Shown here piece by piece: positions 1,905 through 14,612 of a stretch of DNA of 51,551 nt (position 1 is its first letter; each line of letters opens with the position of its first letter). The stretch covers positions 1-51,551 of the forward strand of contig CAJQJY010000007.1 of NCBI GenBank assembly GCA_905478765.1. Reading direction: 5' to 3'. Source of the DNA: an uncultured Flavobacteriales bacterium. GTDB lineage: Bacteria > Bacteroidota > Bacteroidia > Flavobacteriales > BACL11. The position numbers and the translations under genes were made by a program. The notes beneath the pieces are model-generated. The model searched no databases, was not told the origin of the DNA, and saw only the letters and a program-made list of their open reading frames with translations.

Positions 1905-4187
1905 ATGGAAGATTATTTGCAAAAACTAAACCCTGAACAAAGAAATGCAGTAACGCATTCAACCGGACCATTAATGGTAATTGCTGGCGCAGGTTCAGGC
2001 AAAACAAGAGTTTTAACATATAGAATTGTACACCTATTAAAATCAGGAATATATCCACATAATATTTTAGCTTTAACTTTTACTAACAAAGCATCAAAAG
2101 AGATGCGGAACAGAATAGAGCTTATGGCAGGGGAATCGGAAGCTAGAAGCCTTTGGATGGGGACTTTTCACTCGGTTTTTTCTAAGATTTTACGATTTGA
2201 AGCCGAAAAATTAAATTATCCAAGCAACTTTACAATTTACGATACGGACGACTCTAAAAGTTTAGTAAGAAGCATCATTAAAGAGTTAAACTTAGATAAA
2301 GATATTTATAAACTTGGCGTGATAAGGAACAGAATATCATCATTAAAAAATAACTTTATTTCTCCAGCAGGATACAACAATAAATCCGAACTTAACCAAC
2401 AAGATAAAATAGCAAAAAGAACTGAATTTGGGAGGGTTTATCAAATGTATGTTCAAAGATGTGAAAAAGCATCAGCAATGGATTTTGATGATCTACTTTT
2501 AAAAACATATCAATTATTAGAAAATCATGATGAAGTATTGCTTAAATATCAAGAAAAATTTAAATATATTTTAATTGATGAGTACCAAGATACTAACCAT
2601 ATACAGTATTTGATAATCAAAAAATTAGCCGCACTGAATGAAAATATCTGTATAGTAGGAGATGATGCTCAAAGTATCTATGCATTTAGAGGGGCAAATA
2701 TTCAGAATATCCTCAATTTTAAAGATGATTATCCTAACTATAAAACTTATAAACTAGAACAGAATTACCGATCCACTTCTACTATTGTTGAGGCTGCAAA
2801 TAGCATTATCAAACAAAATGAGCAACAAATTGCAAAAAATGTTTGGACAAGTAATACAAAAGGAGATAAAATAATTGTTGTAAAAACGGGCTCAGATAAT
2901 GATGAAGGGAGGCTAGTTGCAAACACAATTTTTGATGTGCAAATAAGAAGTCAAGCGCACCATAAAGATTTTGCTATTCTCTACAGAACAAACGCGCAAT
3001 CTCGTTCTATGGAAGAGTCGCTCAGAAAGAGGAACATTCCTTATAAAATCTATGGTGGATTGTCATTCTATCAAAGAAAAGAAATTAAAGATTTACTAGC
3101 TTATTATCGTCTTTGCACAAACCCAAATGATGAAGAAGCTTTTAAGCGAGTTATAAACTATCCAACAAGAGGTGTTGGCACAACTACTATTCAAAAATTA
3201 TTTTTTTTTGCAAACGAAAAAAACAAGACTATTTGGGAGGTGATAAATCATCTTGATGAAGCAGATATTAACATTAATAATGGGACTCGAAAAAAGTTGA
3301 AAGAATTTGCTTTATTAATCAATAATTTTATTTTAGATACTAAGAAAAAAGATGCATATACTGTAGCGGAAGAAATTGCTAAAAAAACTGGACTTTTTAA
3401 TGATTTATACACAGACAAATCACCAGAAGGAGTTAGTAGATTTGAAAACATTCAGGAACTTTTAAATGGAATAAAAGATTTTAGCGAAACAGCTGAAAAG
3501 GGCACCAACAAACTACCTGATTTTATGGAAGATGTAGCACTTTTAACTGATCAAGACAAAGAGACTGATGATGACTTTAACAAAGTTACTTTAATGACGG
3601 TTCATGCTGCAAAAGGATTGGAGTTTGCTTATGTATTTGTGGTTGGTTTAGAAGAAAATCTTTTTCCAAGCATGATTAGTGGTGAAAGTCAAGAAAATTT
3701 GGAAGAAGAAAGAAGACTTTTTTATGTTGCAATTACTAGAGCTAAAAAAAGACTTTTTTTGTCTTTTTCTTCAACTAGATTTAAATGGGGGCAATTCACA
3801 GACTGTAAGCCCAGCAGGTTTATAAGCGAATTGGACGATAATTTTTTAGAAAAACATGAGCTTACACCAAAAAAGAAAAAAGAATACAATCCGTATAAAA
3901 TTTATGCCAAAACAAAATACAAAGAGAAGAAGTACTCCGCTGCTACCAAAAAATTTGTAGCTCCAAAAAATTTAACCAACATAAATAGAGCAAAAAATAT
4001 ATCAATTAAAGAAAGTGATTTAAGTAAAATACAAAACGGAATGCAAGTGAAACACTCAAGGTTTGGTGAGGGTACAGTTTTAAGCATTTCAGGCGAAGGA
4101 AGCAATAGGAAAGCAACCGTATTCTTTAATGGCATTGGACAAAAAGACTTGTTACTAAAATTTGCAAAACTTGAAATCATAAAATAA
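1905..4187 (+). CDS. uvrD: UvrD/PcrA-type ATP-dependent 3'-5' DNA helicase (SF1)
   Basis: This is a superfamily 1A helicase that unwinds DNA in nucleotide excision repair, mismatch repair and removal of recombination intermediates. Walker A is AGAGSGKT at residues 27-34, Walker B is DEYQDT near residue 226, motif III is GDDAQSIYAFRGA, motif V is TVHAAKGLEF and motif VI is RRLFYVAITRAKK. The C-terminus (KHSRFGEGTV and following) resembles the Tudor-like tail of PcrA/UvrD, which contacts RNA polymerase. At 760 residues it is the usual family length. The choice between PcrA and UvrD is only nomenclature here. The gene is monocistronic: its own promoter lies upstream, and the remnant of a LuxR-type regulator abuts its stop codon. 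Confidence 0.95.
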   Translation: MEDYLQKLNPEQRNAVTHSTGPLMVIAGAGSGKTRVLTYRIVHLLKSGIYPHNILALTFTNKASKEMRNRIELMAGESEARSLWMGTFHSVFSKILRFEAEKLNYPSNFTIYDTDDSKSLVRSIIKELNLDKDIYKLGVIRNRISSLKNNFISPAGYNNKSELNQQDKIAKRTEFGRVYQMYVQRCEKASAMDFDDLLLKTYQLLENHDEVLLKYQEKFKYILIDEYQDTNHIQYLIIKKLAALNENICIVGDDAQSIYAFRGANIQNILNFKDDYPNYKTYKLEQNYRSTSTIVEAANSIIKQNEQQIAKNVWTSNTKGDKIIVVKTGSDNDEGRLVANTIFDVQIRSQAHHKDFAILYRTNAQSRSMEESLRKRNIPYKIYGGLSFYQRKEIKDLLAYYRLCTNPNDEEAFKRVINYPTRGVGTTTIQKLFFFANEKNKTIWEVINHLDEADININNGTRKKLKEFALLINNFILDTKKKDAYTVAEEIAKKTGLFNDLYTDKSPEGVSRFENIQELLNGIKDFSETAEKGTNKLPDFMEDVALLTDQDKETDDDFNKVTLMTVHAAKGLEFAYVFVVGLEENLFPSMISGESQENLEEERRLFYVAITRAKKRLFLSFSSTRFKWGQFTDCKPSRFISELDDNFLEKHELTPKKKKEYNPYKIYAKTKYKEKKYSAATKKFVAPKNLTNINRAKNISIKESDLSKIQNGMQVKHSRFGEGTVLSISGEGSNRKATVFFNGIGQKDLLLKFAKLEIIK

Positions 4188-4188
4188 T

Positions 4189-4508
4189 TATAGTGCAGTA
4201 GGATATTTGAGCAAGAACAATGATAGATCCGAAATAATCAAAGCTTTAACAAACTGTTTAAACGGAAAAGAATTTGTTAATAAAAATTTATTGCAAGAAG
4301 ACAAAATAAGTTCAGTTAATAAAAATAAATATCAAAAAAATAATCTTTATTTATTAGAGAGAGGTGAGGTGGAACATATATTAACTTTGAGAAAAATTAT
4401 GTGATTGCATGCTTGTTAAAGATAAGCAAATGGACTGTTGAAACACACAGAAAAAACATAATAGTAAAACTTGATGTAAAAAATTCAGCAGCTTTAGCTC
4501 AGCTTTAA
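4189..4508 (+). pseudogene. Decayed LuxR/NarL-family response regulator (C-terminal remnant)
   Basis: Starting directly after the helicase stop codon, one frame reads SAVGYLSKNNDRSEIIKAL, which resembles the end of a receiver domain, where GYLLK-type motifs are typical. It continues through NCLNGKEFVNKNLLQE into LERGEVEHILTL, a damaged copy of the LuxR-HTH opening LTEREVEILTL with extra codons, and then stops at 4402-4404. From 4422, in another frame, it resumes as ISKWTVETHRKN, then KLDVKNSAAL, and ends at TAA 4506-4508; this is the recognition-helix half of a LuxR/GerE domain. The scanning helix between the halves is lost and the frame is shifted. The N-terminal receiver domain with its phospho-acceptor Asp is absent, apparently deleted up to the helicase gene. 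The TTG at 4207 is an internal Leu codon, not a start. Confidence 0.85.
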
Positions 4509-4527
4509 ATAAAACACAAGTTAACCA

Positions 4528-5463
4528 CTACCTTAAAAGATTAAAAATTTTCTTGCATTTACTTTCATCAATTTGCAATTGTTTTTTCAAAGCATCAAGA
4601 TTTTCAAATTTCTTTTCACCTCTAATTCTTTCTGAAAACTCAATTTTAATATTTTGATTATATATCTCTTTATTAAAATCAAAAATATGAACCTCTATGG
4701 TGTGTGATTCGTCATGTATAGTAGGACGAAATCCAATATTTAACATGCCATAAAACTGCTGATACTCAATAAGAACTTTAACAGCATACACCCCATCTTT
4801 TGGTAATATTTTCCAGTTATTTACCACATTAATATTTGCAGTTGGAAAACCAATACTATATCCAATTTTATTTCCTTTTTCCACCTTACCATTTATAGCA
4901 AAATCACAACATAAATAAGAATTTGCTTTTTCAATATCCCCTTCAGCAATCGCGTTTCTTATTTTAGTAGAACTGATAGTTACCTCTTCAACATTTTGAG
5001 GTTCAATTTTATGTAACTTAAAGTCATATAATTCTGATAAAGCTAAAAGGTTTTCAAAAGTTCCCTCTCTATTTTTGCCAAAATGATGATCATAACCAAC
5101 TACCACATGTTTCATGTTCAACTTATTCACTAAAAAATCTCTGATAAAATTAACTGATTTTAAACGAGAGAAATCAACAGTAAACTCATGTATAATAAGA
5201 TTTTGCAATCCAGTTTTTTCAAGTGCCTTAGTTTTCTCTTCAATTGTGTTAATTAATTTTAACTTTTGATCATCAGGAAATAAAATATGCCGTGGATGAG
5301 GATAGAAAGTAAGTAAGACACTTTGCAAACCTTCTTTTTTTGCTGTTGCATTTAGCTTATCAATTATTGTTTGATGCCCCTTGTGTACCCCATCAAAAGT
5401 GCCAATAGTAATAATTGTATTAATATCTGAAGGAAATTCCTCAATTGAATGGTAAACGTTCAC
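4528..5463 (-). CDS. ribF: Bifunctional riboflavin kinase / FMN adenylyltransferase
   Basis: This protein makes FMN from riboflavin and ATP, then FAD from FMN and ATP. The N-terminal adenylyltransferase domain shows the nucleotidyltransferase signature TIGTFDGVHKGHQ (residues 20-32) and a second motif SSTKIRNAI near 170. The C-terminal kinase domain carries GNKIGYSIGFPTANI and GVYAV. At 311 residues it matches the usual 305-315 for RibF. It has its own -7 box upstream and no cotranscribed partner. Its 3' end faces the LuxR remnant. Confidence 0.96.
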   Translation of the reverse strand: MNVYHSIEEFPSDINTIITIGTFDGVHKGHQTIIDKLNATAKKEGLQSVLLTFYPHPRHILFPDDQKLKLINTIEEKTKALEKTGLQNLIIHEFTVDFSRLKSVNFIRDFLVNKLNMKHVVVGYDHHFGKNREGTFENLLALSELYDFKLHKIEPQNVEEVTISSTKIRNAIAEGDIEKANSYLCCDFAINGKVEKGNKIGYSIGFPTANINVVNNWKILPKDGVYAVKVLIEYQQFYGMLNIGFRPTIHDESHTIEVHIFDFNKEIYNQNIKIEFSERIRGEKKFENLDALKKQLQIDESKCKKIFNLLR

Positions 5464-7426: not shown

Positions 7427-8068
7427 ATGAAAAAATATTTTTATTTACTTCTTACCATTCTGATTTCATGCACTAAAACCTTTAAACTGCAAGAAGGAGA
7501 TTTACTTTTTCAGGATTTAGATTCCTCACCACTTTGTGATGCAATAGAATTAGTAACTCCAGGATATAATGGCGCTAACTTTTCTCATATTGGTTTGGTG
7601 GTTTTAGAAAATGATACGCTTAAAGTTTTAGAAGCAATCCCTCCCAAAGTAATGATTACTAACTTATATGATTTTATAAATCGTTCTTTTGATAAAAACA
7701 GGAACCCAAAAGTAATTGTTGGTAGATTAAAAAAGAAGTTTACAAATTCTATCAATAATGCTGTTTCTTATTCTAAAAGTAAATTAGATATTCCATATGA
7801 TGAAGTATTTTTAATAAATAATGAAACGTATTACTGCTCAGAACTTATTTATGAAGCATTCTTAAATGATTCTATTTTCGAACTAAAACCAATGACTTTC
7901 CTTCATCCAAAAACCAAAGACACCCTTAAAGTTTGGAAAGAATATTATTCAGACTTAAACACTTATATTCCTGAAGGAAATTCTGGAATAAATCCTGGTA
8001 TTATCTCTCTTTCAAACAAAATTGAGATAGTACATTTTTATGGAATCCCTAGCGGAATGGAAAAATAA
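7427..8068 (+). CDS. YiiX/YebB-like permuted NlpC/P60 cysteine hydrolase, lipoprotein
   Basis: This belongs to the circularly permuted papain-like (peptidase C92, YiiX) family, whose members cleave amide or ester bonds of peptides, lipids or cell-wall fragments. A lipoprotein signal peptide ends in the lipobox LISC (Cys15), so the enzyme is probably anchored to a membrane outside the cytoplasm. The family order His-then-Cys is seen: the GDLLFQD entry motif at residues 24-30, His54 in NFSHIGLV and the nucleophile Cys137 in YYCSELIYEAF. The 213-residue length fits. It appears monocistronic and starts 4 nt after its own promoter box. The substrate is unknown. Confidence 0.85.
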   Translation: MKKYFYLLLTILISCTKTFKLQEGDLLFQDLDSSPLCDAIELVTPGYNGANFSHIGLVVLENDTLKVLEAIPPKVMITNLYDFINRSFDKNRNPKVIVGRLKKKFTNSINNAVSYSKSKLDIPYDEVFLINNETYYCSELIYEAFLNDSIFELKPMTFLHPKTKDTLKVWKEYYSDLNTYIPEGNSGINPGIISLSNKIEIVHFYGIPSGMEK

Positions 8069-8100
8069 TTTATTATGCTTAGAATAAATCTAAATAAATA

Positions 8101-8108
8101 TATATTTG
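8101..8108 (+). promoter_or_regulatory. -7 promoter box of the TPP-element/TonB receptor transcript
   Basis: TATATTTG is a full TAnnTTTG match. The predicted start, about 4-5 nt downstream, falls right at the 5' edge of the riboswitch P1 stem at 8114, as expected if the RNA starts with the aptamer. Confidence 0.65.
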
Positions 8109-8113
8109 CCACA

Positions 8114-8188
8114 ATTATCGGGGTGCTGTATAACTACTGAAATTACAACCATTAATTCTGAAATGGCAATTCATTTTAGGAAAATAAT
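8114..8188 (+). promoter_or_regulatory. Probable TPP (THI-box) riboswitch, divergent
   Basis: The order of conserved blocks follows the TPP aptamer: GGGGTGC at 8120-8126, CTGAAA at 8137-8142 (consensus CUGAGA, one change), ACC at 8148-8150 in place of ACCC, TTCTGA at 8156-8161 (consensus ACCUGA), AAT at 8168-8170 inside the P4 loop, and TTAGGA at 8176-8181 (consensus GUAGGG). Pairing is preserved by compensation: P1 ATTAT 8114-8118 with ATAAT 8184-8188, P4 AATG 8162-8165 with CATT 8172-8175, and TTCT 8156-8159 with the AGGAA that follows. P2 is imperfect. A small hairpin (AGAAC/GTTCT, 8190-8203) follows and could be part of the expression platform; no terminator is visible. The G to A change in CUGAGA makes activity uncertain. 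It controls a TonB receptor, a known target of THI elements in this phylum. Confidence 0.62.
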
Positions 8189-8236
8189 AAGAACACTTGT
8201 TCTGCACTTACTCATTAAAAAACTAGAAAAAGAAAA

Positions 8237-10156
8237 ATGAAAAAAGTAGTAAAAACACTTTTTGCAATTGTTATTAGTTCAACTTTTGTAAATGCACAAA
8301 ACACAGTAAATCAAAAATTAGATGAAGTAGTAGTTTCGGCAAACAGAGCATCATCAACTGAAAACACATCTAATGTGCAAATAATCAGCTTAGATGAAAT
8401 ACAAAATGCTCCAGTTCAAACTATTGAAGATTTATTAGAGTACGCATTAAATGTAGATGTAAGACAAAGAGGAGGTCAAGGAGTGCAAGCAGACATAAGC
8501 ATGAGAGGTGGAACATTCGAACAAGTACTTGTAATGTTAAACGGAATCAAATTGAATGACCCTCAAACAGGACATCACACTATGAACCTACCTGTAAGCT
8601 TGGAGCAAATAGAAAGGATTGAAGTAATTACTGGTGGAGCTACACGAATTTTTGGGAACTATGCCTACACAGGAGCTATCAATATTATTACTAAGAAAGA
8701 GGGGAATTCTTCAGCAACTTTAAGTGGCGGTCAAAACGGATTTAAATCAGCTGAAATCAACTATGCTTTAAAAACATCTAACATCAATCACAATATTTCT
8801 ATTAATCAAAAAAGAAGTGATGGATTTCCTGTCTACCATAAAGATAGAGATACAACTACTATGGAAGTAGATTATAAAATTAAAAATTACTATTACCAAG
8901 CAAGCGGTAATATTGCAGGAATAAAAGCTCTTTTCAATATAGGATATACCGATAAAGAATTTGGAGCTTATACCTTCTACACACCAGAATATCCAACACA
9001 ATTTGAAAAAACTAAAACTACTTTTTCATCTTTACAATTCAAGAAAGAAGGAACTATTTCATTAGAGAACAAATTGTATTGGAAAAAACACAATGATGAG
9101 TTTATTTTATTCAGAAATCATCCATCTTGGTATCATAATTTCCATGAAACAAATGTTTATGGAATGGATTTTAATGCAGTTCAAAAAACAAAAAATGGCT
9201 CTAATGTCGTTGGAATGGAAATCAGAACTGATAAAATAATCAGTAATAGATTAGGGGAAGACTTAGAAAACCCTATTGAAATTGACAGCATAAATACTTA
9301 CACAAAAGGACAAACAAGAACAACAACAAACTTATTTGCTGAAAAGAATTTAACCATTGAAAATCTTAGCGTATCAGTAGGGGTTATGATGAATATTGAC
9401 TCAGAATATGGGAATGAATATTTCCCGGGAATTGATATCTCTTACAATATAAATGATGACATTAAATTATTTGCATCTTCTAATAAATCAATGAGAACAC
9501 CAAACTATACTGAGCTTTATTATGCATCACCAACAAATCAGGGAAATGAATATTTAAAATCAGAACACTCAACTAACAAGGAGATTGGAGTAAAGTGGAC
9601 AGCCAATTATCACAAAACAACTTTTACTTTATACCAAAGAGAAGGATCAAATATGATTGACTGGATATTAGCTGAAGGAGACAGTATCTGGCGAACTCAA
9701 AACTTAAATCAACTTACAACTAAAGGATATGAAATTAATTCAAAAATAAACATCAACAAGTTGTTTAACTCTAACCTTCCTGCAAACAATTTAGGAGTAA
9801 ACTATGCTTCAAATAAGTTAAATAAAAAATCTGATGGATTCCAATCAGCTTATGTACTTGATAATTTAAAAACTAATTTTTCAATTTCAGCAAATCAATT
9901 AGTTAATGATAAATTAAGAATAGATTGGAGAGCGACTTATCAAGACAGAGAAGGAGGGTATACGGACTTTAATACAGGATTAGAAGTTGAGTATTTACCA
10001 TTTTGGATAGCATCAATTCGAGTATCTTATAATGCGTTTAAAAACAGTACACTTTTTCTTGAAATCAATAATTTATTCGACAAAGAATATGTTGATTTTG
10101 GAAATGTACCCCAACAAGGAAGATGGATGCGAGCTGGAGTGAAAATTAAACTTTAA
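8237..10156 (+). CDS. TonB-dependent outer-membrane receptor, probably for thiamine compounds
   Basis: This is a 22-stranded outer-membrane importer energised by TonB-ExbBD. The signal peptide ends at VNA (residue 20), followed by a TonB box-like LDEVVVSA (residues 28-35), a plug domain (residues about 45-150, with RGGTFEQVLVMLNGIKLND and GGATRIFGNYAYTGAINIITKK) and a barrel ending in an aromatic-rich terminal strand (GRWMRAGVKIKL). At 639 residues it is BtuB/FyuA sized, much shorter than SusC, and it lacks the SusC N-terminal carboxypeptidase-like domain. The substrate is inferred only from the TPP-type RNA element in its leader. No SusD partner or inner-membrane transporter gene is adjacent. 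A strong bidirectional terminator follows. Confidence 0.9.
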   Translation: MKKVVKTLFAIVISSTFVNAQNTVNQKLDEVVVSANRASSTENTSNVQIISLDEIQNAPVQTIEDLLEYALNVDVRQRGGQGVQADISMRGGTFEQVLVMLNGIKLNDPQTGHHTMNLPVSLEQIERIEVITGGATRIFGNYAYTGAINIITKKEGNSSATLSGGQNGFKSAEINYALKTSNINHNISINQKRSDGFPVYHKDRDTTTMEVDYKIKNYYYQASGNIAGIKALFNIGYTDKEFGAYTFYTPEYPTQFEKTKTTFSSLQFKKEGTISLENKLYWKKHNDEFILFRNHPSWYHNFHETNVYGMDFNAVQKTKNGSNVVGMEIRTDKIISNRLGEDLENPIEIDSINTYTKGQTRTTTNLFAEKNLTIENLSVSVGVMMNIDSEYGNEYFPGIDISYNINDDIKLFASSNKSMRTPNYTELYYASPTNQGNEYLKSEHSTNKEIGVKWTANYHKTTFTLYQREGSNMIDWILAEGDSIWRTQNLNQLTTKGYEINSKININKLFNSNLPANNLGVNYASNKLNKKSDGFQSAYVLDNLKTNFSISANQLVNDKLRIDWRATYQDREGGYTDFNTGLEVEYLPFWIASIRVSYNAFKNSTLFLEINNLFDKEYVDFGNVPQQGRWMRAGVKIKL

Positions 10157-14487: not shown

Positions 14488-14496
14488 CATTAATAT

Positions 14497-14545
14497 GTGG
14501 ATAGATTTGGCCTATTGCAACCACTAAAAAAAATGCTAAAAATAG
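14497..14545 (+). promoter_or_regulatory. SAM-II (SAM-alpha) riboswitch controlling metK
   Basis: All parts of this compact H-type pseudoknot aptamer are present. P1 is GTGG (14497-14500) with CCAC (14521-14524). The conserved GATTTG (14504-14509) and TTGCA (14515-14519) occupy the loop. The pseudoknot helix P2 is CTATT (14512-14516) with AATAG (14541-14545), after an A-rich linker and the invariant GCTAAAAA (14535-14542). SAM-II binds S-adenosylmethionine and lowers expression of methionine/SAM genes, which fits metK 67 nt downstream. The core strand GATTTGGC (14504-14511) is also perfectly complementary to GCCAAATC at 14567-14574, a possible SAM-free alternative helix. Confidence 0.93.
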
Positions 14546-14612
14546 TATTTCCTTTAGCGCTTTTACGCCAAATCTTCCGATTAAATTATTGTTAAACTTA
14601 AAATTTAAAAAG

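Follow-up and report, generated by a model that had tools for sequence, protein, structure and literature searches.

A probably decayed TPP-type aptamer of contracted form in the leader of a TonB-dependent receptor gene

Introduction

The leader of a TonB-dependent receptor gene in an uncultured Flavobacteriales bacterium resembles a thiamine pyrophosphate (TPP) riboswitch in which a key contact base has changed, raising the question of whether such a leader still senses a ligand, senses a different one, or has ceased to sense at all. The window analysed here is the whole 51,551-nucleotide stretch of DNA that carries this leader. The leader was compared with TPP aptamers of the same genome (G000), of two sibling genomes with orthologous leaders (G001 and G006), and of related families.

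Results

Relationship of the leader to TPP aptamers

The Rfam TPP model RF00059 had been proposed as the check on this leader, and it gave no match in 7950-8300 even at E<=10; the leader fails the RF00059 gathering score of 54.3 bits, and an Rfam search at gathering thresholds returned nothing there and no RF00059 match anywhere in the window. The only Rfam match on the leader at E<=10, to PreQ1 with 14 bits, was treated as chance. A whole-genome RF00059 search found a single match, to another aptamer (G000:C1:36979-37066, 39.5 bits, below the cut-off), and among 52 genomes of the family searched, the model matched 44 at E<=1. An alignment of 40 family aptamers that excluded the orthologous leaders (A1) was used to build a covariance model (R1), which was also run on the window leader with filters off. 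R1 matched 8109-8199 with 45.6 bits along its entire length (model positions 1-88 of 88), with E-values of 5.1e-11 over 173,653 bases and 4.8e-10 genome-wide that are rough owing to a short calibration; the second-best R1 match within the window scored 10.3 bits. The full-length alignment with the TPP aptamer noticed in the sequence-only reading was thereby recovered.

RF00059 scored 44.7 bits, below the gathering cut-off, at each of G001:C78 and G006:C25, directly before receptor orthologues, and the gene order at the G006 and G001 orthologues is that of the window wherever the contig is long enough. R1 scored 65.6 bits at the G006 leader, 65.6 at G001:C78 and 39.8 at a further leader, G001:C1. 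In the family search with R1, an aptamer at this receptor was found only in G000, G001 and G006, and a DNA search with the leader returned the homologous leaders plus many short A+T-rich matches, which were ignored. The R1 match, together with the RF00059 matches of the siblings, shows that the window leader shares descent with TPP aptamers. Covariance-model support and conservation of the leader, on which the sequence-only reading had staked its interpretation, were both found, the former as the match to a lineage model and the latter in two sibling genomes, whose orthologous receptor likewise has a TPP-type aptamer ahead of it.

The features of the locus are listed in Table 1. We take TAnnTTTG to be the Bacteroidota -7 element, which makes 8101-8108 a candidate promoter box; as it lies at 8101, where the sequence-only reading had the leader begin, the aptamer probably begins near the transcript 5′ end. 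Two other RNA families matched above gathering score in the window: a SAM-II riboswitch (14491-14549, plus strand, 58.2 bits) upstream of an ORF starting at 14589, and RF03531 (n00280; 3678-3775, plus strand) inside an ORF at 1905-4187. RF03531 is an sRNA described within a Clostridioides difficile helicase gene, and the match probably reflects coding conservation, since the G006 counterpart of this ORF resembles by eye a UvrD/PcrA-type helicase.

Table 1 Features of the receptor locus in the window
Feature	Position	Strand	Basis or remark
YiiX-type permuted papain-like enzyme, upstream gene	7427..8068	+	Synteny marker with G006 and G001
TAnnTTTG promoter-like box TATATTTG	8101..8108	+	Read from sequence; sibling leaders also preceded by box
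Degenerate TPP-type aptamer, contracted J4/5 form	8109..8199	+	R1 match; no RF00059 match
GGGGUGC, P2/P3 5′ strand, retained	8120..8126	+	Alignment to R1
J3-2 T-loop, CUGAAA replacing CUGAGA; G42A at 8141, with P3 G37A just 5′ at 8136	8137..8142	+	A1 invariant columns 37 and 32 broken
P2 3′ strand, AACC replacing ACCC; C48A at 8148	8147..8150	+	Invariant column 44 broken
J2-4/P4 5′ strand, AAUU replacing GAAC; G54A, A56U, C57U	8154..8157	+	Invariant columns 50, 52 and 53 broken
P4-P5 arm, contracted to 24 nt, long hairpin retained; U-turn base of L5 (8167) changed from U to C; without C77/G78	8157..8180	+	
Former expression platform: hairpin; C-tract complementary to GGGGUG gone	8190..8210	+	
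TonB-dependent receptor, 639 aa, plug and beta-barrel, BtuB/FepA-like	8237..10156	+	

Loss of invariant positions in the window copy

Alignment A1 contains 40 invariant columns, of which the window breaks 7, G001:C1 breaks 8 and G006 none; when the 40 family members were left out one at a time, 39 broke no invariant and one broke a single one. The window losses, in E. coli-style residue numbers mapped onto the window by eye, are G37A (8136), G42A (8141), C48A (8148), G54A (8154), A56U (8156), C57U (8157) and the L5 uridine (8167). The change of CUGAGA to CUGAAA and the differences in P2 reported in the sequence-only reading are therefore real, and the UGAGA T-loop with G42 is absent from the window leader, which has UGAAA at 8138-8142. 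G42 is invariant in 40/40 family aptamers; the T-loop by which the pyrimidine is recognised comprises residues 39-43 of J3-2 (PMC3764141), and the aminopyrimidine is sandwiched between G42 and A43 (PMC7824784). C77 and G78 of J5-4 are also missing from the 24-nt P4-P5 arm, which contains no CG. In 42/45 family leaders, compared with 7.1 expected from mononucleotide shuffles, the aptamer is followed by a C-rich tract that can base-pair with GGGGUG; this tract is absent downstream of the window aptamer.

Compensated base changes had been claimed in P1, P4 and the CCU/AGG helix. This was not borne out: two-sided changes were found at 0/21 pairs across the orthologous leaders, of which there are just three distinct ones. 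In the window, P1 (AUUAU/AUAAU) consists of A-U pairs only, and no more than 53% of P1 cells pair over the three leaders; the CCU/AGG helix is UCU/AGG in the window, a one-sided wobble, and GCU/AGG in G001:C1, a G-G mismatch. The fold stability of the window leader (z -1.24; 23/200 shuffles equally stable) was uninformative.

The orthologous leaders fall into intact (G006:C25 and G001:C78) and degenerate (the window and G001:C1) copies. Between the window and G006, identity was 60/82 in the aptamer, 30/38 in the 5′ flank and 29/46 in the 3′ flank, so that the aptamer changes at a rate like that of its flanks; fourfold sites were identical at 62/71 (YiiX gene) and 82/87 (receptor gene), and the other TPP aptamer of the genome is identical to its G006 counterpart at 87/88 positions. 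Between the window and G001:C1, 64/81 aptamer positions and 38/40 positions of the 5′ flank were identical, and the exact changes common to both are those at C48 and the L5 uridine only, with otherwise largely different invariants broken. The two leader versions of G001, one degenerate and one G006-like, lie on contigs that overlap in synteny, and this genome may be a mixed-strain assembly, as both leader types occur on separate contigs. In G006:C25 a stop or frameshift interrupts the orthologous receptor (3368-5285, minus strand), the aptamer being intact; the interruption marks either a pseudogene or an assembly error.

Probable decay of the aptamer and its alternatives

The most probable reading, which we hold with reasonable though not full confidence, is that the window leader is a decayed contracted TPP-type aptamer that has most likely lost ligand sensing, the receptor still being expressed. 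A contracted TPP-type aptamer like those on the thiamine receptors of the family would have come to stand in the leader of the BtuB-like receptor of G000, G001 and G006, presumably copied from a thiamine-receptor leader in their common ancestor, with loss elsewhere as the alternative. The window lineage has lost ligand-contact and folding positions as well as the switching C-tract, losses which suggest that this leader most likely senses no ligand, and the receptor would since be expressed from the retained promoter without aptamer control. The window copy would offer a before-and-after case of a riboswitch wearing out ahead of a retained receptor. Two observations count against decay. The P4-P5 hairpin and GGGGUGC are retained, and the aptamer is more diverged than the 5′ flank between the window and G001:C1, which would not be expected under simple neutral drift unless the promoter holds the flank; the promoter-like box may account for this conservation, and change faster than the surroundings is also expected from adaptive re-tuning.

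These same two observations favour a working variant aptamer in which G42A, C48A, A56U and C57U re-tune the leader to another thiamine-related ligand, in line with the altered ligand preference that the sequence-only reading had entertained. We consider this unlikely, as the degenerate copies, in losing ligand-contact and fold positions, share only the C48 and L5 changes and broke largely different invariants, no two-sided compensation was found, the C-tract is gone and G42 does not vary among the 40 family aptamers. The region moreover changes about as its flanks do, whereas the other TPP aptamer of the genome is frozen. A little less likely still, the leader could work through another device, for example base pairing between GGGUGC and GCACUU ahead of the start codon, or as a ligand-free structured translation leader; the two segments are paired in the minimum-free-energy fold, but this fold is little better than those of shuffles (z -1.24; 23/200) and the pairing is absent from the G006 and G001:C1 folds. 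Chance resemblance in an A+T-rich leader, to which the missing RF00059 match would point, is very improbable given a full-length R1 match of E 5e-11, where the runner-up in the window reached 10.3 bits, and is refuted by the RF00059 scores of the orthologous leaders.

Receptor and thiamine supply

The receptor matches TonB plug and barrel models, with BtuB and siderophore-receptor models matching weakly and all below curated cut-offs; the vitamin B12 receptor model TIGR01779 scored 129.4 bits, short of its curated cut-off of 599.7. Among solved structures FepA and BtuB match best, and the receptor shares 28% identity over 156 residues with the local thiamine receptors, from which it forms a separate branch. 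A match to the receptor was present in 23/60 genomes searched, and no aptamer was found at its orthologues in 11 other family genomes. No cobalamin riboswitch was matched by Rfam at gathering in 12 homologous-receptor loci (of 79), so that at these 12 loci no such riboswitch points to B12 as substrate. Thiamine or a precursor, the substrate predicted in the sequence-only reading, is plausible: intact sibling aptamers before the orthologous receptor lend the thiamine link support of an indirect kind only.

ThiC was matched in 0/52 family genomes, compared with 13/14 control genomes; import of vitamin B1 or a precursor is therefore expected, with uptake control central to B1 supply. The other aptamer of the genome (locus L340, on G000:C1), a contracted TPP-type aptamer, stands before another TonB receptor and near a PnuC-family gene and a NadR-like kinase assigned by eye, and this is likely a thiamine salvage cluster. 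The thiamine pyrophosphokinase model PF04263 (TPK_catalytic) had no match in the genome, so that the NadR-like kinase may phosphorylate thiamine.

A contracted aptamer form on Bacteroidota TonB receptors

The family aptamers of A1 lack C77 and G78, and their pyrimidine-sensor core (GGGGUGC, CUGAGA, ACCC) is invariant in 40/40. C77 and G78 are reportedly highly conserved nucleotides of J5-4 (PMC3764141) that hydrogen-bond the pyrophosphate directly (PMC7824784). In order to place this form, further RF00059 matches were collected from a class search (149 genomes) and an order search (118 genomes), and 183 leaders were examined, a non-random sample of automatically fetched top scorers plus 80 hand-picked, mostly lower-scoring leaders; TonB status was assigned by phmmer against five receptors. 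Three high-scoring loci that were not located automatically (L208, L230, L234) were left out, G075 was counted twice, and weak RF00059 matches at G019:C1 and G012:C39 were excluded as chance-like.

In this non-random sample, 81/118 classified TonB leaders were contracted, compared with 2/56 other leaders. The TonB leaders comprised 67 contracted 9/9, 14 contracted 10/9, 37 canonical and 6 unclassified, and the non-TonB leaders 54 canonical, 2 contracted and 3 unclassified; among the 9/183 unclassified, some (G036, G027, G042, G224) are contracted by eye. The two non-TonB exceptions stand, by labels assigned by eye, before a hydrolase-like ORF (G014b) and a Thi4-like ORF (G170b; L305, G170:C134). 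Thirteen genomes carry both forms, and in 12 the contracted form is on a TonB receptor and the canonical form elsewhere, the reverse being found in none; one of the 12, G061, may count through a canonical copy on a contaminating contig. That copy (L131, G061:C73) is a canonical TPP aptamer, G+C-rich (56%), in a family otherwise without ThiC, and its contig is possibly a contaminant. Canonical aptamers also occur on TonB receptors of other Bacteroidota families, so lineage explains part of the pattern.

C77 and G78 are often missing on Bacteroidota TonB aptamers, owing to a contracted J4/5 and a P5 that forms a covarying helix of 5 bp. In place of the J4/5 pyrophosphate pocket, this helix would carry one G-A or G-U mismatch (or NG/U). 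Among the 18 distinct 9/9 arms outside the home family, 17 have an extra P5 pair replacing part of J4/5, a count reached by 0/10,000 shuffles, with C-G, G-C, A-U and G-U as pair types, and all 18 have the G-A apposition.

Discussion

The claim that this leader is an altered TPP aptamer was partly confirmed as an observation and partly supported in its interpretation. The idea of an altered ligand suits the wider group, with its intact aptamers of contracted form, better than the window copy. The contracted form, apparently a widespread and undescribed form of the TPP aptamer (no description was found in the open-licence literature searched), keeps the pyrimidine sensor, with the phosphate side rebuilt. 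Either TPP would be bound in a new way or the ligand would lack a pyrophosphate. We tentatively suggest that it is a second Bacteroidota TPP-aptamer form on thiamine outer-membrane receptors that senses a non-TPP ligand such as unphosphorylated thiamine, with canonical aptamers in the same genomes controlling biosynthesis genes, a proposal to which we give distinctly less than even weight. An aptamer that lacks two nucleotides reported to bond the pyrophosphate in the best-known vitamin riboswitch, recurs on uptake genes and is almost never found on the other genes sampled would mean either that TPP is read by a pocket unseen in crystal structures or that another vitamer controls uptake. TPP-linked transport operons of Bacteroides thetaiotaomicron gave no significant transcript response to thiamine and the biosynthetic operon responded (PMC5613172), a comparison that runs through TPP linkage.

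Of the known systems, the TPP riboswitch (RF00059, THI element) shares with the window the order of elements (GGGGUGC, CUGA-A T-loop, ACC, CUG of P4, L5, AGG) and the position in an outer-membrane receptor leader. The window copy differs in the changes at G42, C48, A56, C57 and the L5 uridine and in having no RF00059 score, and the whole local family differs in its missing C77/G78 contacts and contracted J4/5. The omr TPP-regulated receptors homologous to BtuB (PMC2211319) and OMthi BT2390 of Bacteroides thetaiotaomicron (PMC5613172) are likewise TonB receptors after a TPP-type aptamer; unlike these, the window has a receptor from another branch than the local thiamine receptors and a degenerate aptamer. 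The HMP-PP riboswitch (thiS motif; PMC6478431) likewise senses a compound of the thiamine pathway, but is embedded in a terminator, has another architecture and is not a TPP variant.
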